64,000 bases of DNA, taken from positions 496,001-560,000 of the forward strand of contig NZ_NDFH01000003.1 in assembly GCF_002239585.1 (NCBI RefSeq), written 5' to 3'. Within the stretch, counting starts at the first letter, position 1, and each line of letters begins with the position of its first letter. The notes below the pieces were generated by a model. The model ran no database searches, had not been told where the DNA came from, and saw only the letters and a list, made by a program, of their open reading frames with translations. The stretch comes from Psychromonas sp. CD1. Its GTDB lineage: Bacteria; Pseudomonadota; Gammaproteobacteria; Enterobacterales; Psychromonadaceae. Positions 10,099 to 61,168 of this stretch are shown here, in pieces. The position numbers were made by a program, and so were the translations under genes.

Positions 10099-11400
10099 AT
10101 GAGTGTTGATGCGGCAGGTTTTTCTACAGAATTATTAAAAGCGGTTAAAGCATGTGGTTATACAAATTTAACCCCTATTCAGCAACAAGCAATACCGCTG
10201 ATCCGCTCGGGCTGTGACCTTCTTGCGAGCGCACAAACAGGTACGGGTAAAACCGCTGCATTTTGTTTGCCCCTGTTAGATTTATTAATGAAATCAGCCT
10301 CACAAAAAAAAGCGAATAATCGTGCTATCCGCGCGTTAATATTAAGCCCTACTCGTGAACTTGCGGCTCAAATATTAGAAAATATTAAACAATATTCTCA
10401 GTTTATGGATTTGTCTTGTGCGGTGATCTGTGGTGGTAAAAATATGGGTCCACAAATTAAAGTTCTTAAAAGTGGCGTAGATATTTTAGTAGCAACCCCA
10501 GGGCGTTTAATCGAGCATATCAATGCGCGTAGTGTCGACTTATCTCATGTAAAACATTTAGTATTAGATGAAGCAGATCGAATGTTAGATATGGGGTTTT
10601 TAACTGATATTCAATTACTTATGCAGAATGTTAAACAAAAACATCAAACACTTATGTTTTCAGCGACTTTCTCAAACAAAGTAAAAACACTTGCGAAACA
10701 GTTACTACATACCCCAAAAACGATTGAAGTATCCGCTCAAAATTCAACTGCGGGAAAAATTAAGCAACAAGTCTATTGGGTGTCTGAAACACGTAAGCAT
10801 GAATTATTATCTGAGTTAATAGGTGTTAAAAATTGGCAACAAGTCTTAGTTTTTGCTGGTACCAAAGAAAGCGCCGATTTACTCGCTAAAGAATTAAAAT
10901 TAGATGGTATTAAGTGTGCAGTTTGTCATGGTGATAAAAACCAAGGCGCTCGTAATAAAGCCATTGAAAAATTTACAAAAGGCGAAGTTCGTGTATTAGT
11001 GGCTACCGATGTTGCTGCGCGTGGTCTTGATATTCCCAACCTTCCTTACGTGGTTAACTTTCATCTGCCTTTCTTAGCTGAAGATTACATACATCGGATC
11101 GGTCGGACAGGACGTGCAGGAAAAAAAGGCATGGCAATCTCGTTAGTGAGCCCCAAAGATGAACAATTTCTAGATAATATAGAAGAGCTTATCGGTCGCA
11201 AATTTGAACGTATCATTTATCCAGGTTACGCGATGGATTCATCGTTACCTGAAATATATGAAGGAACGAACACCCCAAAATTAAAGAAAAGTCGTTATAA
11301 AGCAACACAAGAGCATAATCAGATGCTCGCTCGTAAACAAGAAAAAAATAAACCTTCCAATATTCGCCGTGAAAAGGCTAAACGCAGAAAAAAACGTTAA
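10099..11400 (+). CDS. rhlE: DEAD-box RNA helicase, RhlE type
   Basis: A 433-residue helicase with all core motifs in order: Q motif (GYTNLTPIQQQAIP), AQTGTGKT (motif I), PTRELA (Ia), TPGR (Ib), DEAD in VLDEADRMLDMG (II), SAT (III), ARGLDIPNL (V) and HRIGRTGRAG (VI). A short Lys/Arg-rich tail follows. RhlE-type proteins remodel rRNA and structured mRNA and often help growth in the cold. RhlE is favoured over SrmB or DbpA by length, the basic tail and the absence of a DbpA RNA-binding domain. GAAGG precedes the ATG. Confidence 0.85.
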   Translation: MSVDAAGFSTELLKAVKACGYTNLTPIQQQAIPLIRSGCDLLASAQTGTGKTAAFCLPLLDLLMKSASQKKANNRAIRALILSPTRELAAQILENIKQYSQFMDLSCAVICGGKNMGPQIKVLKSGVDILVATPGRLIEHINARSVDLSHVKHLVLDEADRMLDMGFLTDIQLLMQNVKQKHQTLMFSATFSNKVKTLAKQLLHTPKTIEVSAQNSTAGKIKQQVYWVSETRKHELLSELIGVKNWQQVLVFAGTKESADLLAKELKLDGIKCAVCHGDKNQGARNKAIEKFTKGEVRVLVATDVAARGLDIPNLPYVVNFHLPFLAEDYIHRIGRTGRAGKKGMAISLVSPKDEQFLDNIEELIGRKFERIIYPGYAMDSSLPEIYEGTNTPKLKKSRYKATQEHNQMLARKQEKNKPSNIRREKAKRRKKR

Positions 11401-45509: not shown

Positions 45510-46550
45510 TTAGAGACCTTGTATATATTGCGCATCTGTTGTGCAATGTAACCCTTCCTCTAATTCTTTTTTCGCATCTTCCCGTCTCGAATTTTTGTTG
45601 ATAACTAAATCATTAAATAATCGTATCAAATTCTCTTTTTCAGGTACTTCTTTATCTCCCATACCTATATGTGTTAAATCAATAAAAAACTCATCAAATA
45701 AAGAAGATAAATCCTCAACAATTTGCGTATTAAAAAACTGCTCATTATTATAGATACTAGGATAACCACCTTTTTGCTTATCGACAGCAAAGGTAAAACC
45801 TTTTATATTAATAATAGTTGTCGACTTTTCACACTTCAACATACAACCATCTTCTATCGCGACTTTTTTGCAGCCGACCGTTTGCTGGAAAAAACATTGC
45901 CGGCTGGTCATCATTAAAATAGGATGATAAATACTATAAAGTAATTTAAAATTCTTAGGCCTTTTAATATTTCTAATTTGTAATGCATTAAGCTCATTAG
46001 AAATAAAAGCACCGCTACAATTTAACTCTTCTTGTAAACTAAGCAAAGCGTATGAATTTGTAGTATTTAAGAAAGGCCCCGCTATCCATTGAATACCCAA
46101 TTTATTGGCGATAAATGCAATACCAGTATTATTTGATACTATTCGTTTAGGCTTAACCTCTTCTAAGAAACGGACCGCTTCTTGATAATCTTTACCGATT
46201 AAAATAGCGGGAAACCAAGGGATCAGATGAGAATATTGTAAAAACAAATCAATATATTTATTATCATTTGTTTTAAAACTTTCAGGTAATTTAAAATATA
46301 AATCACCATCAAAAAATGTATGAAGATGTATATCCTTTACGGCACTGATAAGAACACACAGCTTTAATTTACTCAATACTTTAGGATGCGTTTCTAGAGT
46401 CGGTAAATTTACAGATACAATCGGTTTCAACTGCCCATTTAATAAAAAAGCCACTTCTTTTTTCATTAAAGTTAGCTCTTTAAAAGGAACACTTAAACCT
46501 TCATCAAGAGAAGAACAATCAATATGTTTTAATGAATACTCACCTTGTTT
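45510..46550 (-). pseudogene. rlhA: rlhA 3' portion, separated from its 5' portion by mfd
   Basis: The frame opens at 46550 with K-Q-G-E-Y-S-L-K-H-I-D, then VPFKELTLMKKEVAFLLNG and the C-terminal U32 domain with the cysteines of MMTSRQCFFQQTVGCKK and EDGCMLKCEKS, as in E. coli RlhA (YdcP). The first Met inside is at 46466, giving a possible 318-residue fragment with no catalytic core. The matching 5' portion lies at 50047-51270 on the same strand. Joining the two across one ACCCGG copy gives a continuous frame of about 754 residues. RlhA hydroxylates C2501 of 23S rRNA, so this half cannot work alone. Confidence 0.9.
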
Positions 46551-49500
46551 ACCCGGACTCCCAGACCTGGATGACCCAATCTACTCTGTTTGATTTTCCA
46601 ACACAAAAAAAAAGAAAAAACCGATTATTACTGGCTAATTTACAAGGTGCATCCTCGACACTCGCGATCAGTGAATTAAGTAAACAACAACAAAACCCGC
46701 TTATATTGATTGTGAATGACACACCGAATGCATTGAAATTAAAAAAAGAACTCCACTATTTTCTTGAAGATGAAATTGAAATTATAAATTTCCCTGATTG
46801 GGAAACATTACCTTACGATCATTTCTCACCTCACCAAGATATTGTCTCAACACGAATTGAAACGCTATATCGACTTCCTGCACTAAAAAAAGGCATTTTA
46901 ATTGTTCCTATCACCACATTACTGCTTCGTCTTGCTCCACCGAGTTACTTCAAAAAACATGCTTTGATTGTAAAAACCGGTGACAATATTGAATTACAAT
47001 CCTTACGAGCTAACTTAGAAAGTTCAGGTTATTACGCAGTTGAAAAAGTCCTGGAACATGGTGAATTTTGTGCTCGAGGATCGCTATTAGATATTTTCCC
47101 AATGGGTGCAACGCAACCTTACCGTATTGATTTTTTTGATGATGAAATAGACTCAATACGTACTTTTGATAGAGAAACCCAACGCTCGTTAGGTGTAGTT
47201 AAAGAAATAAAACTACTACCAGCTCATGAATTTTGCACCGATGACAAGGCAATTCAATGCTTTAAAGAAAAATTTACTAGAAAGTTTAAATCGCCTTCCA
47301 GTCAAGGAAAAGGCTCTATTTTTAGCGACATATCCCAAACGAATTTACCTGCGGGCATTGAGTATTACTTGCCTCTTTTTTTTGAACGTACCGCCACCCT
47401 TTTTGATTACTTCCCGAAAGAGTCAACGCTGCTTATCAGTGGCGACATTAATCAAGCGACCTTAGATTTTTGGGTTGGTTTAGAAAAACGTTATATCGAT
47501 CGCAGTGTCGACTTGCACCGCCCATTACTTGAGCCTAATGCGCTGTATTTACGTCATGAGCAATGTTTTGAATTATTAAATGCATGGCCCCGCTATTATT
47601 TACAAAATACGCCCTGCCAAGTAAAAGCAGGACGCACAAATTTCTATGTCTCCTTATTACCTGATGTACAGGTAAACACTAAATTAAAAGATCCCTTATC
47701 TGCTATTCGTCAGTTTATTAGCGATTTTGATGGGCGCATTGTCTTTAGTGTTGAATCTGTGGGCCGTCAACAATCTTTACTTGAATTATTAGCCCCGTTA
47801 AAAATTAAAATCGCGTCTTGTGATAATTTCTCTGCGTTTATTAAAAGCAAAAAACAGATAGCTATCATCATCAGTTGTATTGAAAACAGTTTTATTTTAG
47901 CGCATAAAAAAATCGCGTTTATTACTGAAAATGAACTTCTGGGCTTTAAAATAACGCAGCGTCGTGGCAACACGGATCATCATGATGAGAACTACAGCAG
48001 CGAACATATTTTACGTAACCTAGAAGAGCTTAAAATAGGTCAGCCTGTGGTACATATTGATTATGGTATCGGCCGCTATTTAGGGTTACAAAATATTGAA
48101 AGCGCCGGTGCGATCACCGAATTTGTTGCCCTTGAATATTTACGTGGCGATAAACTCTATGTGCCAGTCAGTGCATTACAACTTATCAGTCGCTACAGTG
48201 GGCACGATGTCGAAAACATCAAACTCAGTAAACTGGGCACCGAAACATGGCAAAAATCCAAACAAAAAGCCGCTGAACGCGTCCGTGATGTGGCAGCCGA
48301 GTTACTTGATATCTACGCGCAGCGCGCCGCTAAGATTGGCTTTAAATATACACTCAATAAAAACAATTATGCCCTGTTTAAACAAGCTTTCCCGTTTGAA
48401 GAGACGCCGGACCAAAGTAATGCTATCAATGCCGTGCTTAACGATATGTGTAGCCGCCAACCGATGGATAGACTTATCTGTGGTGATGTAGGCTTTGGTA
48501 AAACAGAAGTTGCCATGCGCGCCACCTTCCTTGCCGTAGATAACACGCGCCAAGTCGCTATCCTTGTGCCCACAACGTTACTCGCGCAGCAACATTATGA
48601 GAATTTTAAAGATCGCTTTGCAAGTTGGCCGGTACGCGTTGAAGTGCTATCGCGTTTTAAAAGTGCAAAAGAGCAAAAACAAATATTATTGGAGTTACAA
48701 GAAGGTAAGATTGATATCTTAATTGGTACGCATAAACTACTCAGTAGCACTGTTGTTTATGCCGATCTTGGCTTATTGATCATTGATGAAGAGCATCGTT
48801 TTGGAGTGCGCCAAAAAGAAAAAATTAAAGCGCTGCGCGCCCAAATTGATATTTTAACGCTCACCGCAACCCCTATTCCACGGACCTTAAATATGTCCAT
48901 GAATGGCATGCGCGACCTTTCTATCATTGCAACACCGCCCTCTAAACGCTTAGCGGTTAAAACCTTTGTAGAGCAAAAAACAGATGCACTGATAAGTGAT
49001 GCTATCACGCGTGAGATCATGCGTGGTGGGCAAGTTTATTTCTTGCATAATAATGTTGAAACCATTAATAAAGCGGCGGCCGACATTGAAGCCTTAGTGC
49101 CTAGCGCCAAAGTGTCTGTGGCGCACGGACAAATGAATGAGCATCAACTCGAACGCATTATGAGTGATTTTTATCATCAACGTCAAAATGTACTGGTATG
49201 TACCACTATCATTGAAACGGGTATTGATATTCCCAGTGCCAATACCATCATCATTAATAGAGCGGATCATCTAGGGCTTGCACAATTACACCAATTGCGA
49301 GGCCGTGTGGGGCGCTCGCACCATCAAGCTTATGCCTATTTATTAACACCAACGCGAAAATTAATGAGCAAAGATGCTAAAAAACGTCTGGATGCTATCT
49401 CCTCTTTAAATACCTTAGGTGCAGGCTTTACGCTGGCAACCCACGATTTAGAAATACGTGGCGCGGGCGAACTCTTAGGCGATGAACAATCGGGACAAAT

Positions 49501-50052
49501 TTCAAGTATTGGTTATAACTTATATATGGAAATGCTTGATCAAGCCGTTAACGCATTACAAAATGGTCAAGAAACAACGCTAGAGCAATTATTGTCAAGC
49601 CAAGCGGATGTCGAGTTACGCATTCCGGCGTTGATCCCCAGTGATTATATTATGGATGTTAATACACGCTTGTCTTTATATAAGCGTATTGCCAACAGCA
49701 AAGATAAACATCAGTTAAAAGAGCTCCAAATCGAACTCATTGATCGTTTCGGTTTACTGCCTGCAATCACTAAAAATCTTATTCATATCACCCAAATGAA
49801 ACAACTGTGTAATAAATTAGGCATAAAACGCCTTGATGCACACGCCAAGGGTGGCAATATTATTTTTACCCAAAATACCAAAGTCGATCCCATGTTCTTA
49901 GTTTCTTTACTGCAAACACAAGCAAATACCTTTAAACTAGAAGGGCCGACAAAACTAAAATTTACACACCAACTCGAAGATACACAGCAACGCATTAACT
50001 GGATCACTCAGTTATTACACCGTTTTGTTGAACACTTGCTAAAATAACCCGG
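46551..50052. other. Insert of about 3.5 kb carrying mfd, flanked by ACCCGG direct repeats, inside rlhA
   Basis: ACCCGG is found at 46551-46556 and 50047-50052. Deleting the DNA between them with one repeat (3,496 bp) restores rlhA in frame: V-P-G, then K-Q-G-E-Y-S-L. The insert starts 14 bp before the likely mfd ATG and ends with the mfd stop codon. There are no terminal inverted repeats, transposase or integrase inside. The six-base repeat could be a target-site duplication or microhomology used in a rearrangement. Confidence 0.85.
46571..50047 (+). CDS. mfd: Transcription-repair coupling factor Mfd
   Basis: A complete 1,158-residue Mfd. It has the UvrB-like N-terminal module, the CarD-like RNA-polymerase-interacting domain (GQPVVHIDYGIGRYLGL), and a RecG-like motor with Walker A GDVGFGKTEVAMR, DEEHRFGVRQKE and TATPIPRTLNMS, TTIIETGIDIPSAN and QLRGRVGRS. 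The TRCF C-terminal domain follows. It removes stalled RNA polymerase and recruits UvrA. The ATG at 46571 begins MTQSTLFDFP; frames further up run into antisense rlhA. Only 14 bp of its own upstream DNA remain, so its natural promoter and perhaps ribosome site have been lost. Confidence 0.95.
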   Translation: MTQSTLFDFPTQKKRKNRLLLANLQGASSTLAISELSKQQQNPLILIVNDTPNALKLKKELHYFLEDEIEIINFPDWETLPYDHFSPHQDIVSTRIETLYRLPALKKGILIVPITTLLLRLAPPSYFKKHALIVKTGDNIELQSLRANLESSGYYAVEKVLEHGEFCARGSLLDIFPMGATQPYRIDFFDDEIDSIRTFDRETQRSLGVVKEIKLLPAHEFCTDDKAIQCFKEKFTRKFKSPSSQGKGSIFSDISQTNLPAGIEYYLPLFFERTATLFDYFPKESTLLISGDINQATLDFWVGLEKRYIDRSVDLHRPLLEPNALYLRHEQCFELLNAWPRYYLQNTPCQVKAGRTNFYVSLLPDVQVNTKLKDPLSAIRQFISDFDGRIVFSVESVGRQQSLLELLAPLKIKIASCDNFSAFIKSKKQIAIIISCIENSFILAHKKIAFITENELLGFKITQRRGNTDHHDENYSSEHILRNLEELKIGQPVVHIDYGIGRYLGLQNIESAGAITEFVALEYLRGDKLYVPVSALQLISRYSGHDVENIKLSKLGTETWQKSKQKAAERVRDVAAELLDIYAQRAAKIGFKYTLNKNNYALFKQAFPFEETPDQSNAINAVLNDMCSRQPMDRLICGDVGFGKTEVAMRATFLAVDNTRQVAILVPTTLLAQQHYENFKDRFASWPVRVEVLSRFKSAKEQKQILLELQEGKIDILIGTHKLLSSTVVYADLGLLIIDEEHRFGVRQKEKIKALRAQIDILTLTATPIPRTLNMSMNGMRDLSIIATPPSKRLAVKTFVEQKTDALISDAITREIMRGGQVYFLHNNVETINKAAADIEALVPSAKVSVAHGQMNEHQLERIMSDFYHQRQNVLVCTTIIETGIDIPSANTIIINRADHLGLAQLHQLRGRVGRSHHQAYAYLLTPTRKLMSKDAKKRLDAISSLNTLGAGFTLATHDLEIRGAGELLGDEQSGQISSIGYNLYMEMLDQAVNALQNGQETTLEQLLSSQADVELRIPALIPSDYIMDVNTRLSLYKRIANSKDKHQLKELQIELIDRFGLLPAITKNLIHITQMKQLCNKLGIKRLDAHAKGGNIIFTQNTKVDPMFLVSLLQTQANTFKLEGPTKLKFTHQLEDTQQRINWITQLLHRFVEHLLK

Positions 50053-51270
50053 TACGAAAGACTTAAAACGTTTTTCTAATACGGACGCATTAACAGGCGC
50101 ATCGGATGCTTTTTGTAATAGGCTAGTAGAAAAAACTTGATACGATTGGCCCGAAAAAACAATGGTTATCTTCAAAGGTTGATTTAATCCACCTGAGAAA
50201 CATAGGCTTAATAATGGTTTTTCAATACTCAAATACTTTATTTTTTCAGCCACATCGGCACTGATCACATTTTTTTGCTGTGCTAATTTTGTTTGTACTT
50301 CTTGAATCTGCACGATTGATATCGCGTTGTCTTGTTCATTTGCGTGTTTAAAACTATGATCGCGCGGATCATCAATAAACATGTTTTTAGTCAACTTACC
50401 TTGTAGAAAAGAATTGGTAAAATTACGATTAAAAACTTTATAAAGAGCACTATTATCCGTAATTAATTGGCCCGTACTGACAAATTTATCAATCTGTTTC
50501 CGCCAGCTATCTACAACCGTATAAACATATTGCGCACCCTTGATGCGTCCCTCTATTTTTAAAGAATCAACGCCCGCATCCACTAACTCGGGTAAATCAA
50601 AATAAGCAGAATTATCTTTTAAATTTAAAGGATATCTATTTCCAGCAGCCGTCAACTCATATTCATCTCGACACGCTTGACTACAACGACCTCGATTACC
50701 TGAATTACCCACACTTACCGAACTTGAATAACATTGTCCTGAAAATGCAACACATAAAGCGCCATGCACAAAAACTTCAGTTAAAACATCTACATCATGC
50801 GCTAAACGCGTTAAGCTTTTTATTTCACCTAAATTTAGTTCGCGCGATAAATTTACTCGACTGGCCCCAATTTTGGCCAAAAATAATATTTGACCTTCAT
50901 TATGCGAGGTCAATTGTGTTGAAGCATGTATCAATAAACTTGGAAAATATTTTTTTACTAAATTAAAAACACCTAAATCTTGCACAATAATGCCATCAAT
51001 ACGCGTATTAACTAATTTATTTAATAATTTAACAACGCCTTTAATCTCATGCTCTAATATCACAATATTAAGCGTTAAAAAAACCTCACAATCAAATTTG
51101 TGAGCAAGACGGATAATCCCTTGTAATGCATCAAATGAGATATTAGTGGCACGATTACGTGCATTAAACATATCTAAGCCACAATAAATGGCGTTTGCCC
51201 CAGCAATAATAGCCGCTTTAATGGCATCAATATCACCACCAGGCGCTAATAACTCAATTTTATTACTCAT
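50047..51270 (-). pseudogene. rlhA: rlhA 5' portion (U32 catalytic half), cut by mfd insertion
   Basis: From the ATG at 51270 (MSNKIELLAPGGDIDAIKAA) the frame encodes the U32 domain with VFVHGALCVAFSGQCYSS and GRCSQACRDEY cysteines. GVDSLKIEGRIKGAQYV and part of the DUF3656 region follow. True RlhA sequence ends with F-K-S-F-V-P-G at the ACCCGG repeat. Translation then reads 12 codons antisense to mfd before a stop near 50008. This leaves about 420 residues that lack the C-terminal domain, so activity is doubtful. It is one of four U32-family genes in the window. Confidence 0.92.
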
Positions 51271-51337
51271 TTTTAACTCACTCAATCGCATTCAATTTGG
51301 ATGCGAGTTTACCTGCATCATTGCGCGATTGAAAGGA

Positions 51338-51973: not shown

Positions 51974-53566
51974 CTAACTCACACTATATTTTTGCAAATC
52001 TATTTGTAACTGCACACCTTGTAACTTCAACTGATTGATACGTTGTAAGTACGCAGCACCATTAAGAAGATGCAAGGCAACATCTACAGCTTTTCGTTGT
52101 CGATAATCAGCTAAGTAAGTACCTTTTACCCATTGATTAAAAGCCCCCAAACTAGGACCTGCCCAAATTTGATAATCCATTTCTCGCCCTTTTTCTCCCT
52201 CATTAGACCAACGAGATGAAAGCCCTAGATACCAACGAAATATTAAAGCCATTTTCCGTTTTGGATTTTGCATCGCTCGCGCTAACATATCGGCATCACG
52301 TGCAGCAAAAAAAGTTTGGGTTATTTGCCAAACACTTTCTAAGCTTTGTCTAAATATTTGTTTCTCAATTTGCTCCCGCTGAGCACTCGGAATCTCGTCA
52401 ATGCTATTGTAATTAACATAAAGTTCATACAATTTATTAGCACGCATCGCAAACATTGAACCTCGTTTCACGACTTGTAATTTAACTCCCATTTCAAACA
52501 TGTCAGCAGCAGGTGCCATTGTAACATCCGCCATTTCAACCTGAGCCAATAATTTACGCGTATGCTCGGAAGCCCCGGCCTCTACACATGCTTGGTTCAC
52601 AGAACCTAGAACAATGTAAGCGGCTCCCATATTAAAAGCAGCTAAAGCGGCCTCTGGGGTGCCAATTCCCCCACCCGCTCCAACCCGTAGCGTGGTGGCA
52701 TATTGATATTGCGCTTGTATTTCATCGCGTAAGGCAATAATCGTCGGTAACAAAGTTAAAAACGGACGATTATCCGTATGCCCTCCAGAGTCTGCCTCTG
52801 CGCTAATGTCATCGGCCATTGGAACTTGTAAAGCAAGCTTTGCTTGTAATGGCGTTATTTTTCCTTGCTCCAATAACTTATCTAATAATTTTTGAGGTGC
52901 AGGTTGCATAAAATGACGCGCGACTTCAGTGCGTGATACTTTCGCAATAACCTTATTTTTTATGCGGATGCTACCATCTGGGTTTTCACTGAGGCCTGCG
53001 ACCCGAAACCAAACAATATGTTCGGTTAAACTTAAATAAGCCGACGCTTCAACCGTTTCAACTCCCAATTTCAAAAACGTTTGTACCGCCCCACGCTCCA
53101 GTGCTTCTTCCGTAGGAGCATGAATTAAATTGACCGCATACGGCCCATCCGGCAATTGAGCTTGAATACGTAAGATTGAATCTTCAATCACTTTCGGTAC
53201 TAAACCTGCCGCCCCAAAAGAGCAAAGCATGCCGGCTTTACCTAGAGCCACAACAAGCTCTACCGAGGCAATTCCATTTGCCATAGCACCACCATGATAA
53301 GCATATTTTACATTATGTTGTTTTTTAAATTCAGGATCGCCTAAATCTATTGCCTGTAAAGCCTGTGCAAATGCTTGCACAGGCTTATCTCCAACTTGAG
53401 ATGTTTCTTGCGCCACGCCAAAAACAGTGCCTACCTGCGCCATATATATGGGTTTATGTAAACACATTAACACCTCTTTTACGTCTAACATTTGAGTTTT
53501 AACATCTTTACTTTTAACTTTCCAAGCCCAGTCAATACGCGACTCTTGTAATTTTAAAACAGCCAT
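51974..53566 (-). CDS. pfaD: PfaD, enoyl reductase of the polyunsaturated fatty acid synthase
   Basis: A 530-residue FMN-dependent enoyl reductase of the 2-nitropropane dioxygenase type, collinear with PfaD of Shewanella, Photobacterium and Moritella. Landmarks are SRIDWAWKV at the N terminus, KYAYHGGAMANGIASVELV, SFGAAGLVP, ADSGGHTDNRPFLTLLP, RVGAGGGIGTPEAA, and MALIFRWYLGLSSRWSN near the C terminus. It reduces double bonds during EPA or DHA synthesis. AAAGGA precedes the ATG within 10 bp of the pfaC stop. It appears intact. Confidence 0.95.
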   Translation of the reverse strand: MAVLKLQESRIDWAWKVKSKDVKTQMLDVKEVLMCLHKPIYMAQVGTVFGVAQETSQVGDKPVQAFAQALQAIDLGDPEFKKQHNVKYAYHGGAMANGIASVELVVALGKAGMLCSFGAAGLVPKVIEDSILRIQAQLPDGPYAVNLIHAPTEEALERGAVQTFLKLGVETVEASAYLSLTEHIVWFRVAGLSENPDGSIRIKNKVIAKVSRTEVARHFMQPAPQKLLDKLLEQGKITPLQAKLALQVPMADDISAEADSGGHTDNRPFLTLLPTIIALRDEIQAQYQYATTLRVGAGGGIGTPEAALAAFNMGAAYIVLGSVNQACVEAGASEHTRKLLAQVEMADVTMAPAADMFEMGVKLQVVKRGSMFAMRANKLYELYVNYNSIDEIPSAQREQIEKQIFRQSLESVWQITQTFFAARDADMLARAMQNPKRKMALIFRWYLGLSSRWSNEGEKGREMDYQIWAGPSLGAFNQWVKGTYLADYRQRKAVDVALHLLNGAAYLQRINQLKLQGVQLQIDLQKYSVS

Positions 53567-53575
53567 GGTTTTCCT

Positions 53576-56500
53576 TTAATTATTGAGGCTATGCCTATAT
53601 ATTTTATTTTTGATCTGTAATTTTATTAATATGGCAATTTGTTGTTCTGCGACTTGGCGAGCACGTAGAAATACTTGCTGTGCTTGCGCTTGTTGATGAA
53701 TTTCACTACTTATTTTAGTTTTTACTGGCGGCTTCATAGTGGCTTCCAATGAAATGAGGGGCGCAACGAGTACGGACGTATCTTTAAATATCTTTAACGG
53801 ACTAAGATTAATGCCATTAGAAAGCGTTCCGGCCGGTTTATTTTGTAATTGTGTTTTAATACGTTTAAATACATTCTTAACAGGCGCATTTAATATTGTT
53901 TGCTTAATATCCACGCCCCCTAAATAAATAGGTTTAACTAACGAAAATGCGCGTTCTGGCGTCGTAATATATTTGATTTTCCGTTCAGGTTGGGCACTAG
54001 ACATAAGTAAATGAGCGCAACTCATATCCTTACCAAGCCCATTAATAGCCACACATTTTATCTCTTTTGCATTCACTAATAAAGCTGATTTTATTAAACT
54101 AAACATACCTGAGGCATTAAATAAATGCCCTATTTGACGTTTAATACTATCAATTTTAACTTTAGGGTAAAGATGTGCAAATGCTTTTATTTCCGCTTTA
54201 TTATCTAAATCAAAACCACTTGCAAAAGCTTCAACATAATCAATATCTGCACATTTTATCTGTGCTAATTGACATGCTTTATAACTGGCATCTTTAATCG
54301 CCTGAGCATCACTGCCTGTGGCAAAACTGAGTGCGTCAATCTGTGCGTAACGCATATCTTGTGCGTGACTTCGTTGTAATACAATTGCCCCCGCACCTTC
54401 ACCAATCAACCACTCTTTATTGAGTAACGGATCAGAGTGGCTGATGGCAGATTCACTAACCGGCCCATAACGCTGACGTAAACTAATGTTTTCAAAAGAT
54501 CCCGCTAAATCAACACTGGCAATAATTACCGCTTCGACATCTGAGGTTGCAAATAAACTTTGCGCTATTTGTACACAACGATAAACAGAATTTTCTTCAC
54601 TTGAAACGGTAAAAGCAGGACCCGAGAAATCCCAAAGAGCGGCAATACGTGAGGCCATTAAATTACCAATAAAACTTGTATATTGGTTTAACTGCGCAGG
54701 AGAGGCAATACTTTCTTTCGCGATATTAATCAACTCTTCTTGTTGTTCTGCTGTTAAGTCTATGCCCTGCTCTTGCAAACTTTGTCTAATTTGCGTGCTT
54801 AAATTTACTCGCCCACGATATTGATGCATTTCTAATTCCATACCCATTGCCACTAATACCGCAACATTCGTACCTTCTTTTAAATTTGCATCTCTTGCTG
54901 CATTATCTGCGACTTTCATCATCATTAACTGTTGTGGAATCAAACAGTCTTGGGCATTAGGTGGCACTTTAAAACGTAAAAAATCAATATCAAACTTCTC
55001 TATATAGCCTCCACGAGGAACTTTCCCAAGACCCAAAGTACGCATAACATTCGCATTATTTTGTATGCCTTTCCAACGATTAAGAGGTAAGTCTGTGAAT
55101 GTATTCTTATTGTTTTTCAACAAAGCATCAAATTGTACTAGCGAGTTTATCCCTGTAAGTAAACAGTCCATTCCTACAATACTCATTAATCTACGGGGCT
55201 CTGGTCGCTTAAAATTTGTAATAGAAGGTGCGTTCGCACCTTCTAAAACTAAATGTGCATTACTGCCACCAAATCCAAATACACTAACTCCCGCAATACG
55301 TGGCTTATTTTCAGAGGTTTCCCAAACAACAGTTTCTGTCGGCATTTGCGCTTGAGTTAAATAACCTTGTTTGGTTTTTATGGCATTCTTTAAACTAATT
55401 GTTGCTGGAATTTGACCTTCATTAAGCGCATAAATAGCTTTGATCATCCCCGGCATACCCGCTGCCGTTAATAAATGCCCTAAATTTGATTTAGCAGAGC
55501 CTAAAAAAGGTTTGTTCTGATATAAAGAAAAAAATGTTTCCATTGAATTTAATTCAACTTTATCGCCTTTAGGGGTACCTGTCGTATGACATTCAATATA
55601 ACCAACATCACTTGGTGACACATCTGCATCCGCATACGCACGGTGATAGGCAAGTACCTGTCCCTTACTACTTGGACTTAATATAAACTCACCTTTACCA
55701 TCGTTAGATAACGCGCCTCCTTTAATAACGGCATGGATTGTATCTCCATCTCGCAATGCATCACTGTGTCGTTTTAAAACCATCATACCTGCGCCTTCGC
55801 CTGCAAATAATCCTTTTGAAGCACTATCGAAGGGAGCGTGTATATCATTATCAGGAAACGCATGGAAAATAGAAAAACCCATATTAACAAACATAGGATC
55901 TGCTGCAGAAACTGCTCCTGCGAGCATCATATCGACTTCGCCAGTATGCAACATATCACACGCCAACTTTAAACTATAACAAGATGATGCACAGGCCGCA
56001 TCTAAGGAAAAATGCGCGCCACCAATACCCGCTATTTTAGCCAACAATGCTGAGGGGTAACCAGCAACTAACCCATTATCTGCCTCGATCTTTCTCGGTG
56101 TACTGAAATTTTTCAGTCGTAACGAACTCTGTGTTACATGTTGTAATGCTTGCTCAACAATATGATGATAAAAAGGTAAAAAAAGATGATTTGAGGAACG
56201 AGTTGGAAAAGATAAATTACCTAAGATCAAACCACATTTTTGTAAACAAGCACTTCCCCAATACCCTGCATTTTGTAATGCTTGATAGGTGACGTATAGA
56301 GCCCACTTATTGAGCTCATCAAGACTCATTAAATAATTTTCATCAAAATCAGGATGTTTAAAGACTGAAACATCAAAGTTAAAGTTTCGAATATAACCAC
56401 CATAAAGACAATAAAATTTGTCAACATCTCCTTGCTGACCAAAATATTGCATTGGATCGACACCCATTTCTTGTTCGGTTATCTTTGTCCGTAGATCTTG

Positions 56501-56587
56501 TTTATTTAATAACTGGGTCCAAAACTCATCCGGTTGACTCGATCCTGGGAAAAGATTGGCAATACCCACAATGGCTATGTTTTCCAT
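53576..56587 (-). CDS. pfaC: PfaC-like KS-CLF protein lacking the dehydratase domains
   Basis: I start it at the ATG at 56587 (MENIAIVGIANLFPGS) because of AAAGAGAGA upstream. Residues 1-450 form a ketosynthase with the nucleophile in DAACASSCYS, HTTGTPKGD and KSNLGHLLTAAG. Residues about 480-890 form a chain-length-factor-like domain in which the Cys is replaced (TVSSEENSVYR). A linker rich in Gln/Ala then ends abruptly at residue 1003. PfaC in Shewanella, Moritella and Photobacterium is about 2,000 residues with two FabA-like dehydratase domains after the CLF. Both are absent here. The stop lies 10 bp before pfaD, so the 3' half has been deleted. Confidence 0.9.
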   Translation of the reverse strand: MENIAIVGIANLFPGSSQPDEFWTQLLNKQDLRTKITEQEMGVDPMQYFGQQGDVDKFYCLYGGYIRNFNFDVSVFKHPDFDENYLMSLDELNKWALYVTYQALQNAGYWGSACLQKCGLILGNLSFPTRSSNHLFLPFYHHIVEQALQHVTQSSLRLKNFSTPRKIEADNGLVAGYPSALLAKIAGIGGAHFSLDAACASSCYSLKLACDMLHTGEVDMMLAGAVSAADPMFVNMGFSIFHAFPDNDIHAPFDSASKGLFAGEGAGMMVLKRHSDALRDGDTIHAVIKGGALSNDGKGEFILSPSSKGQVLAYHRAYADADVSPSDVGYIECHTTGTPKGDKVELNSMETFFSLYQNKPFLGSAKSNLGHLLTAAGMPGMIKAIYALNEGQIPATISLKNAIKTKQGYLTQAQMPTETVVWETSENKPRIAGVSVFGFGGSNAHLVLEGANAPSITNFKRPEPRRLMSIVGMDCLLTGINSLVQFDALLKNNKNTFTDLPLNRWKGIQNNANVMRTLGLGKVPRGGYIEKFDIDFLRFKVPPNAQDCLIPQQLMMMKVADNAARDANLKEGTNVAVLVAMGMELEMHQYRGRVNLSTQIRQSLQEQGIDLTAEQQEELINIAKESIASPAQLNQYTSFIGNLMASRIAALWDFSGPAFTVSSEENSVYRCVQIAQSLFATSDVEAVIIASVDLAGSFENISLRQRYGPVSESAISHSDPLLNKEWLIGEGAGAIVLQRSHAQDMRYAQIDALSFATGSDAQAIKDASYKACQLAQIKCADIDYVEAFASGFDLDNKAEIKAFAHLYPKVKIDSIKRQIGHLFNASGMFSLIKSALLVNAKEIKCVAINGLGKDMSCAHLLMSSAQPERKIKYITTPERAFSLVKPIYLGGVDIKQTILNAPVKNVFKRIKTQLQNKPAGTLSNGINLSPLKIFKDTSVLVAPLISLEATMKPPVKTKISSEIHQQAQAQQVFLRARQVAEQQIAILIKLQIKNKIYRHSLNN

Positions 56588-56665
56588 ACATTCTCTCTTT
56601 GATAACAGAAATGCCACCGTATATATCACCTCTATGACACATACATAATCGCATTTCTTTTTTAT

Positions 56666-58786
56666 TTATTTAATAAGTGATCCACTAAAAAAACACTCTA
56701 TATTAATTTCCACACCAAAACTTAATAGCTTAGCTAAGGCGCGTAATAAACTCAGACTCTGATCCATACCTTTTACATTTATAGGTACACTGACATGCGC
56801 AGAATCTAATTGCCCTTTTAAAATTTTATCCGTCCATCCAGATAAAGAGCGCCCAGCACCCATTTCAATATAAACTCTCACTTTATCCTTCGCTAACGTA
56901 TTAATTAATCGAGGAAAATCAACAGGATCACACAAGCATTTAGCAATGCTCACGGCAATAGCTTGTTGATGCTGTGGGATAGGTAAATAACAAGAGCTAG
57001 ATAACATTTTGGTATGAATACGTGGCCTAACCGGCATAGCGTAGAGGGCTAGCATATTATTGTATTCTAAATAAGCGGGGGCACAGTGCAGAGCATTGCC
57101 AATGTTAAGGGCAATCGCACGGACCCCTAAACGCTGGCATAAAGCCAAACAATGCTCAGGATATCCGGCTATTAATAAATTATTAGACGTATTAATAATT
57201 GTAATATAAACACGCTCGGTATCTTTAAGCGCTGCGTTAACTTGCTTAAACGTACCTTTTATCGCATAGGTTTCCCATATTTCTTTTGCTTTGTGCTCCT
57301 CTGTATCTATTAATTCCCAATATTTCCGTACGCTATATAATTCATGAGACAATTGATGATTAAAGGTGTCAGAATGTGCTAAACGCTCACTCATATCACC
57401 CGGATTTTGCCAACAACCTAAGGCGGCAAACATACTTACCTCCCCCATACTGTAGCCACAGGCGTTATCCGCTTTTAGCTTAAAAACAAGTTCAAAAACA
57501 GCAGTGAAAACACATGCATAGCCTACTCCGCATTCAGCTATATTCGCTAAATCGTGGCGAAACTTAAGCTCTAGGGCATTGAGCTCTGCGCTATTTAATG
57601 CGCAAAGAGTGCGCGGGTTTAAATGCGTATCTTTGAGTGATGCACCAATATCTTTAGATAATTTGCATATCTGAGGATAAATATCTGGAAACATCTGAAA
57701 AATCATTTGCCCCATTCCGAGATAAGACGCGCCAATACCTGGAAATAAGAACGCTACTTTTGCGTCTCTATTTGGCTGACTAAAAAAACAACTCCCTTTT
57801 GGTGTTGTCCACGTGCAGTTGTTAGTAAATGCTTGGCGTATCCCTTTTAACGCTAATATTTTTTCGCTCTCTAATTGTGCCTCAGAGTCCGCAATTAAAA
57901 CCAATGTATAACACTGTTTTTTTAATTTATATGCCTCGTATAAAGCGCAAGATAATGCATTAAATGTAACGGGTACCGTTAATAGATCTAATTTTTGTAT
58001 TAACGAATCAATATTATTTGCACTTAATATAAATAACCGATTTACCGAACAAGCATTAAATCCATTCGGATGTACTAAGCCATCTTCATAGGCATTAACA
58101 ATTAGATGCGTATATTGCTGAGCATCTAACAAACTCAATGCATTACTACGCACTTTAGCGCCTGTAGCACTAAAAACGGAAGCGGCTTTTGCCAAAAAAT
58201 AAAACGGTGAGTCTTGCCATAATGCTAATAACTGCCCCGTTGGTGCGGTCCAATCCGCAACGGCGGGTCGATAACGTTGATACAAAGAAAGTACACTATG
58301 TACCAAAGCCATAAGCTGGGATAAGGCCCCATTTTCACCCAAAACGCTTTTTTGACAACTGATAACAGTCTGCATCTTCTGCGGACTACGATAGGCCTGC
58401 AATAGACCTAGTTGTTCTTTCTCTCGAAGACTATGTTGCGCACAGGCCGAAACTTCAAGCGTACATATATCTGCACTTTTTAAATCACTATATTGCAATG
58501 ATGTACTAACAATCTCAGCTATCTTCGTATTTTCACCCCAAGCCATATTATTGAGCGTGGCATAACAAATATATTGTCGTGCTTGCACAAAATTAGCACT
58601 CGCTAATAACAAACAAGCACCTCCTTGACGGTTTGCATAATGACTAAAATCTGTCGCAAAACTAATATTAGCAGGCGCATCAATGACTTCCTGAGCAATG
58701 CAAGAAGATGCTATTAATAAAACAGCAACATCAGCTTCTTGCGTAATAGCCGTCGCACGTAACAGAGCCTTATTTAACGAATTCAT
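56666..58786 (-). CDS. pfaB: PfaB, acyltransferase subunit of the polyunsaturated fatty acid synthase
   Basis: A 706-residue protein: an N-terminal degenerate ketosynthase-like half and a C-terminal acyltransferase with FLFPGIGASYLGMGQ and the nucleophile motif GYSMGEVSMFAALG. PfaB influences whether EPA or DHA is made. It lies upstream of pfaC. The 96-bp inverted repeat begins only 2 bp before its ATG, so its own promoter and ribosome site, and perhaps some N-terminal codons, have been lost. An in-frame stop lies two codons upstream. pfaA, normally the gene before it, is not in the window. Confidence 0.9.
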   Translation of the reverse strand: MNSLNKALLRATAITQEADVAVLLIASSCIAQEVIDAPANISFATDFSHYANRQGGACLLLASANFVQARQYICYATLNNMAWGENTKIAEIVSTSLQYSDLKSADICTLEVSACAQHSLREKEQLGLLQAYRSPQKMQTVISCQKSVLGENGALSQLMALVHSVLSLYQRYRPAVADWTAPTGQLLALWQDSPFYFLAKAASVFSATGAKVRSNALSLLDAQQYTHLIVNAYEDGLVHPNGFNACSVNRLFILSANNIDSLIQKLDLLTVPVTFNALSCALYEAYKLKKQCYTLVLIADSEAQLESEKILALKGIRQAFTNNCTWTTPKGSCFFSQPNRDAKVAFLFPGIGASYLGMGQMIFQMFPDIYPQICKLSKDIGASLKDTHLNPRTLCALNSAELNALELKFRHDLANIAECGVGYACVFTAVFELVFKLKADNACGYSMGEVSMFAALGCWQNPGDMSERLAHSDTFNHQLSHELYSVRKYWELIDTEEHKAKEIWETYAIKGTFKQVNAALKDTERVYITIINTSNNLLIAGYPEHCLALCQRLGVRAIALNIGNALHCAPAYLEYNNMLALYAMPVRPRIHTKMLSSSCYLPIPQHQQAIAVSIAKCLCDPVDFPRLINTLAKDKVRVYIEMGAGRSLSGWTDKILKGQLDSAHVSVPINVKGMDQSLSLLRALAKLLSFGVEINIECFFSGSLIK

Positions 58787-58788
58787 AA

Positions 58789-60226
<1,438 letters not shown>

Positions 60227-60240
<14 letters not shown>

Positions 60241-61168
60241 CTAAACGCTTATGATAGTTTCTAAACTCCGCCTCGGTTAATTTTTCTCGTTCTGCATTTA
60301 GCACGATACAATCAAATTCATCCGCCATTTGTTCCACTGCAATAAGCATCATATCAAAAGCCTCTTTTATACTTATCTCTGTATTGGGAGCACTTAGGAA
60401 AAAAGAAACACCAGAACAATCAAATTGCTTCATATTTATCGGATCAAATGTGCCTGGCAACATCATATTCGCAATACTAAAAAGAATGGGACCCGTGCCA
60501 TCAGAATGTTGATGTCGATGAAAAAGAGACATTTCACCAAAACGAAAACCCGACGTTAAAAAGAATTGTAATAGTGCATGTCCATGTAATCTACGTCCTT
60601 CTTTGGCAACAACATTAAAGATGAATATATCATCTTTAGATATCTCTTCTTCTTCGTTTTTTAACTCTATCTCTGATTGTGAATTTTCATCGCTGATAAG
60701 GGTTTCTTCACACGTCTCCGTATCTTTCTCTGAAACGTCTACTTGTTGTTGGTCAATTGGTAATGTTTTTTCTGTACTGCAGAATACATCTTCTTGCTTG
60801 TCATCTAACTCTTTTTCGACCTCACCCAAAGACGTTTCTACCTTTTCAACGGTAGATATAACTTTTTCAAAAATCACATCATTAATGATGCCTTCTGTTT
60901 GTTTATCTTCCTCTGGATTTAACACCCCCGAAAAATCAATATCAACCGTGTCATTAAAATCATTTTCTTTATTTAAAAATGGAACGTTATCAACGTTTAG
61001 CATCCGTTCATCATTATGGAACATATTGTCTTCATTTAATGAATCAGCTTCGATTTCAAAGTGATTGATACTTTTTTTCTCTTTGCGCCCTAATAAATAT
61101 CCATGGACCAAAACACCTGAAATTGCGACTAATCCGATAACAATTAAAATAGACTGAAAATGTTGCAT
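60227..61168 (-). CDS. zipA: Cell division protein ZipA
   Basis: A 313-residue protein with an N-terminal membrane anchor (about residues 6-25, ILIVIGLVAISGVLVHG), a long Glu/Asp-rich unstructured linker (about residues 35-180), and a C-terminal FtsZ-binding domain from FIFNVVAKEGRRLHGHALLQFF to RLAHYL. It tethers FtsZ to the inner membrane. It is divergent from cysZ, as in E. coli. Its normal downstream partner ligA is broken and inverted. The linker is more acidic than the Pro/Gln-rich linker of E. coli. Confidence 0.93.

Follow-up and report, generated by a model that had tools for sequence, protein, structure and literature searches.

A broken polyunsaturated fatty acid synthase locus, as assembled, in the draft genome of Psychromonas sp. 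CD1

The DNA considered here is a stretch of 64,000 nt from the draft genome of Psychromonas sp. CD1 (contig 3, 496001-560000). It is called the window below, and positions are window coordinates unless another piece is named. Between 51974 and 58786, the minus strand of the window carries a remnant of the pfaABCD cluster, which encodes the marine polyunsaturated fatty acid (PUFA) synthase. What is left is pfaB, then pfaC, then pfaD. As assembled, pfaA is gone, pfaC has lost its dehydratase half and pfaB its first codons.

The most complete of the three genes is pfaD (51974..53566, minus strand), which is intact and encodes the flavin mononucleotide enoyl reductase subunit of 530 aa. In a profile search it matches NCBIfam TIGR02814 at 660.6 bits (cut-off 449.25), and it supplies the enoyl reductase that a marine Pfa synthase has. 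The pfaC remnant (53576..56629, minus strand) is an open frame of 1017 aa, counted from a GTG; the alignment of its relatives begins at codon 15 or nearby. Domain searches on its product return only ketosynthase-type matches, a ketosynthase (KS) and a chain length factor (CLF). The remnant covers residues 1-1000 of the 1896-aa PfaC of Psychromonas sp. CNPT3, which leaves ~890 residues missing. A model's reading of the window from sequence only had put the loss after KS-CLF at about 1,000 residues, close to this figure. No FabA-like dehydratase (PF07977) is matched in the pfaC product, where a full marine PfaC has KS, CLF and dehydratases.

The pfaB remnant (56666..58786, minus strand) keeps the acyltransferase (AT) domain with its GYSMGE motif, and matches TIGR02816 at 184.9 bits (cut-off 144.3). 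Its ATG start adjoins a junction, and ~97 residues at the beginning of the CNPT3 frame (811 aa) have no counterpart here. These fall within the KS' pseudo-domain, the N-terminal pseudo-ketosynthase domain in the PfaB layout given in PMC12895367. The sequence-only reading had taken both PfaB and PfaD for functional. PfaD is indeed full-length; PfaB is cut at its N-terminus.

The losses can be mapped against CNPT3, the closest relative by PfaD. There, one strand carries zipA, ligA, an acyl-CoA ligase-like gene, an IS481-like gene, pfaA, pfaB, pfaC, pfaD, a VF530-like gene and trhP in this order, with a 168-aa frame on the other strand just before the IS481-like gene. Two intervals are missing from the window. 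The first gap, of ~2.75 kb (CNPT3 1588785-1591531), removes the dehydratase half of pfaC. Its junction lies at 53587..53616 on the minus strand, with homology picking up again ~20 nt ahead of the start of pfaD. The second gap, of ~14.3 kb (CNPT3 about 1596777-1611106), removes the 3' third of ligA, the intervening genes, pfaA and the first ~97 codons of pfaB. This means that the zipA/ligA side adjoins pfaB, and that pfaA is indeed not upstream, as had been noticed from the sequence. The further suggestion that one event took both pfaA and the 3' end of ligA agrees with the CNPT3 synteny, in which a single deletion would join ligA to pfaB. The missing part of pfaC forms another gap, distinct from this one.

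Two main explanations need to be kept in mind from here on. Either PUFA synthesis has really and recently been lost, or the stretch from 45 to 61 kb is a faulty join in the assembly, with ligA, pfaA and a full pfaC intact in the cells. The pfaC/pfaD junction is a clean gap with no foreign sequence, which argues against a faulty join.

The rest of the draft was searched for the missing parts; 'absent' here means absent from its three contigs of 1,688,234 bases. With CNPT3 PfaA as the query, only PfaC (in two places) and three proteins of type II fatty acid synthesis are matched, the latter read as FabF, FabB and FabD. A family search for pfaA is likewise negative. No PfaA with its KS, malonyltransferase, tandem acyl carrier protein and ketoreductase was found in the draft, the matches being PfaC, other ketosynthases and a FabD-like protein. 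PF07977 has one match here, FabZ, located between genes read as lpxD and lpxA, versus 4-5 in each of 23 other genomes of the genus that were searched (FabA-like, FabZ-like and two in PfaC). All 23 keep FabA and the PUFA synthase dehydratases. The sequence-only reading had expected no eicosapentaenoic acid (EPA) or docosahexaenoic acid (DHA) unless pfaA and dehydratase genes exist elsewhere. In the draft as assembled none was found, and the expectation is borne out to that extent. Nor does any of the three contigs hold a ligA 3' piece. The absence of all these pieces counts against misassembly.

One match to the phosphopantetheinyl transferase family PF01648 is present in this genome and in each of three relatives searched; it is a family match, for which PfaE would be one candidate identity. 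Because all four genomes have one, the retained gene is no evidence for the PUFA pathway, and its substrates presumably include the ordinary acyl carrier protein. A PfaC relative occurs at 35 named loci: in 33 the frame is complete and measures 1928-2057 codons from stop to stop, and in the other two it runs off the contig. The frame is unbroken in 10 of 11 relatives fetched. In another Psychromonas (G022; L040, 4181-9980 and 12397-19822), pfaC and pfaA are each split into two overlapping frames, through a frameshift or a sequencing error.

On the far side of pfaB lies ligA (58875..60194, plus strand), which has the opposite orientation to that in CNPT3 and breaks off after about codon 425. 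It sits between the arms of an inverted repeat of 99 nt, 98% identical, with the arms 1.26 kb apart. The repeat had already been described from the sequence as bounding the pfaB side, and it is real. Its left arm (58786..58884) contains the last zipA codons, an intergenic stretch in which a hairpin and a T run can be made out by eye, and the ligA start. The right arm (60145..60243) adjoins zipA (60227..61168, minus strand), which is full length, 55.8% identical to CNPT3 and oriented as it is there. Such a fold-back at a join is a point in favour of misassembly. At the single mismatch, however, the CNPT3 base stands in the arm that precedes the ligA frame, while the zipA-side arm has a derived one, as an older duplication would. 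Strain mixing could also give such a base.

Self-inverted matches of at least 50 nt, less than 20 kb apart, were also collected more widely. For this genome, 333,001 bases gave three listed matches, including one single-site palindrome; for CNPT3, 428,403 bases gave six, including three such palindromes. Other than the ligA repeat, the closest separated pair among the matches listed is 4.5 kb apart. The other separated pair listed in the 333 kb (L134, 2688-2757 and 12174-12243) is a perfect 70-nt inverted repeat with arms 9.4 kb apart. No tRNA was found at this repeat; its arms look like insertion sequence ends, and we presume that they may be leftovers of these.

The truncated LigA keeps its nucleotidyltransferase (NTase) and oligonucleotide-binding (OB) domains. 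The frame ends inside the zinc finger, with two of its cysteines (408, 411), and there is no helix-hairpin-helix (HhH) and no BRCT. A functional LigA has NTase, OB, a four-Cys zinc finger and HhH. A search of the draft with the C-terminal 246 residues of CNPT3 LigA, accepting E values up to 1, found nothing, and no other NAD- or ATP-dependent DNA ligase was found either. A replacement ligase of family PF01068 is matched in 5 of 7 genomes searched, with no match in this genome or in CNPT3. LigA still functions when BRCT is missing, but HhH contributes to closing the clamp around DNA (PMC10504179). Since HhH has this role, a cell with only the truncated LigA should not be viable, even though the loss of BRCT alone is tolerated. 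That the draft has no intact ligase is therefore another argument for a faulty join.

Other routes to unsaturated fatty acids are missing too. The fabA site of CNPT3 has nagZ-like, ycfP-like and ndh-like (NADH-dehydrogenase-like) genes and a transporter gene on the plus strand, followed by sppA-like, fabA and a Lon-like protease gene on the minus strand. Except for fabA, these names were assigned by reading the sequence. In the draft (contig 3, 458500-467500; L119) the ndh-like gene runs in the opposite direction to its CNPT3 counterpart, and the transporter gene, sppA-like and fabA are missing. An inverted gene beside a deletion is a pattern common to this site and the ligA site, and a similar rearrangement at a second place argues against misassembly. 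A fold-back signature as a systematic feature was considered and rejected: the only inverted pair of at least 20 nt around the ndh-like gene is 30 nt long and 80% identical, with copies 4.5 kb apart that are not at the edges. The desaturase family PF00487 has no match in this genome or in three relatives (four genomes searched). Genes resembling fabB and fabF are retained. As assembled, none of the searched-for routes to unsaturated fatty acids remains. Near the start of the fabB-like gene (L005, 901-2316, plus strand), a short stretch is duplicated in tandem and in frame, with TSPSNKGLMMKRAVITG present twice.

The genome is almost certainly that of Psychromonas sp. CDP1, a reduced gut symbiont of the amphipod Hirondellea gigas. 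CDP1 was described from the H. gigas gut at 10,929 m (NDFH00000000, 1,688,241 bp, three contigs; PMC5893861). Its size of 1.69 Mb compares with 3.05 Mb for CNPT3 (one contig, 3,052,410 bases). The same publication reports large-scale gene loss, including deletion of the torCAD operon. It also describes an assembly from pooled short reads of six metagenomes, in which contigs were ordered by other Psychromonas genomes and gaps were joined by hand from cloned PCR products (PMC5893861). This method is one more point in favour of misassembly. Published completeness is 99.3% (PMC5893861). The genome table used here has 79.9%, a lower figure that leaves room for missing sequence and so also favours misassembly. 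The main text of PMC5893861 has no instance of 'polyunsaturated', 'ligase', 'ligA' or 'desaturase', and one of 'fatty acid', on the community. This literature search, with the supplements of that paper outside its scope, did not find the loss of PUFA synthesis in CDP1 in print.

Not far from the pfa genes, the window also contains a tract that stands out. From 47388 to 50047, 2,660 bases covering the 3' part of mfd are 100% identical to CNPT3; in the window's remaining aligned pieces identity is 73-83%. The tract stops exactly with the mfd stop codon, at its last base. Here mfd splits trhP (U32 peptidase family) in two: the part at 50008-51291 corresponds to residues 1-415, and that at 45510-46466 to residues 439-756, of one 756-aa CNPT3 frame. 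In CNPT3, mfd adjoins that frame, which is intact. No second CNPT3-identical tract exists in the ~80.6 kb comparable out of 333 kb (51.0 kb in the window); the search was limited to sequence with a fetched counterpart and says little on the remaining genome. Either this tract was recently acquired from a strain like CNPT3, or it is a patch derived from the reference. Its perfect identity, its end at the mfd stop and its place inside a split trhP all favour misassembly.

If the pathway has been lost, its remaining genes might be expected to decay. There are no internal stops in pfaB, pfaC or pfaD. Of the 49 window frames, 40 have a match over >60% of their length within the CNPT3 pieces fetched. 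The dN/dS values against CNPT3 are 0.059 (pfaD), 0.099 (pfaC) and 0.121 (pfaB), with 0.020-0.157 for the 35 other window frames that have a value (mfd excluded). Amino-acid changes unique to one lineage, here versus in CNPT3, number 11:13 for pfaD, 39:22 for pfaC and 36:24 for pfaB. The sum of 86:59 compares with 134:104 in 12 control frames (Fisher p 0.6), and no difference is significant. Seven of the control frames have one outgroup and five have three, and two of them are the halves of trhP. Genes without an outgroup are uncounted, and mfd (17:10) is excluded because it is partly CNPT3-identical. No significant relaxation of selection was found on pfaB, pfaC, pfaD or the kept part of ligA, which again favours misassembly.

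A somewhat different picture comes from columns that are otherwise invariant, with identical sequences merged and proteins covering 85% or less excluded. Here such columns have changed in 1/273 (pfaD), 5/347 (pfaC) and 4/98 (pfaB) cases, versus 2, 1 and 1 in CNPT3. In this count pfaC and pfaB tilt a little towards relaxed selection; this weak sign of decay speaks against misassembly. If all these changes are free drift, the 95% caps are 0.008 (pfaD), 0.013 (pfaC) and 0.040 (pfaB) per site. Because free drift is capped at such low values, the three genes lost their use only very recently, or they still have one, or the breakage is not real.

On balance we lean, with little to spare, towards a recent and real loss of PUFA synthesis: the locus would be the wreck of a standard marine pfaABCD cluster in the reduced genome of an amphipod-gut symbiont. 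That the cells really carry this sequence, and that the loss is very recent, we infer. The inversion of ligA and the 14.3-kb loss may have come from one replication-type template switch or fold-back, and a separate deletion would have cut pfaC. Between them, the two deletions would have taken out the FabA-like dehydratases as well as PfaA, with its KS, malonyltransferase, acyl carriers and ketoreductase. The remaining KS-CLF, AT and enoyl reductase would lack a carrier of their own, ketoreduction and dehydration/isomerisation. Because these are gone, the pathway would be dead and no EPA or DHA should form. The bacterium, with fabA also gone, would then take its unsaturated fatty acids from the gut contents or the diet.

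Weighing against this are the low level of decay in pfaB, pfaC and pfaD (no internal stop, a change ratio like that of the controls, low drift caps), the truncated ligA as the sole ligase found, which should be lethal, and the CNPT3-identical tract only 1.9 kb from the end of pfaD. Misassembly is the main rival for these reasons, a doubtful explanation that nevertheless has to be taken seriously. The sequence-only reading did not weigh it as such. It also passed over the N-terminal cut in PfaB, the absence of fabA and desaturase, the lack of an intact ligase and the CNPT3-identical tract. Signs of assembly error in this stretch mean that the loss has to be confirmed in the raw reads.

It is very improbable that the remnant is a slimmed-down working synthase, in which selected KS-CLF, AT and enoyl reductase use an ordinary carrier, FabG and FabZ and make a different long-chain product: pfaC is cut at the end of KS-CLF, the pfaD start region is preserved and the low change rates indicate ongoing or recent constraint, but the architecture occurs in none of the 33 complete named loci and PfaB is truncated. 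FabZ is not known to do the isomerisation. Hardly more credible is the related idea that a minimal synthase was kept because FabA was lost and another unusual long-chain membrane lipid was needed at hadal pressure. A role for PfaD like that of FabX, a flavoprotein making unsaturated fatty acids in Helicobacter, was rejected; PfaD has three cysteines and no CxxxCxxxC plus fourth Cys [4Fe-4S] motif (motif from PMC8626469), which also argues against a working remnant.

The locus is of interest for two reasons: a hadal symbiont may have lost unsaturated fatty acid synthesis, and the draft itself comes into doubt. Cold and high pressure are conditions in which unsaturated membrane lipids are believed to be important. 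Should the draft be correct, the genus's known genes for making unsaturated fatty acids have been lost in a bacterium living 10.9 km deep, which must obtain these fatty acids from its host's food and would offer a clear test of their function. Should it be wrong, a reference-like patch and a faulty join sit in a published case of genome reduction and need correction.

Compared with known systems, the locus is a degraded copy of a well-known pathway, and not a new system. The pfaABCD cluster of CNPT3 (CP004404) has the same gene order and the same neighbours (trhP, VF530-like, ligA, zipA), with identities of 86% for PfaD, 80% for the PfaC part and 66% for the PfaB part. CNPT3 makes EPA and traces of DHA (PMC3668011). 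Unlike the window, which is without about 14.3 kb and 2.75 kb of this sequence, CNPT3 has a full PfaA, PfaB, PfaC and LigA. The pfaC product also resembles PDB chain 6riw (labelled ORF10, 1014 aa), with 1273 bits over residues 1-931 of the pfaC product and a similar length. We take 6riw to be the KS-CLF didomain of a PUFA synthase, excised from a full PfaC for crystallography. That a chain of this size was solved on its own would suit a slimmed-down synthase. The difference is that 6riw would be a piece cut from a full PfaC, whereas here the gene itself ends at that point.

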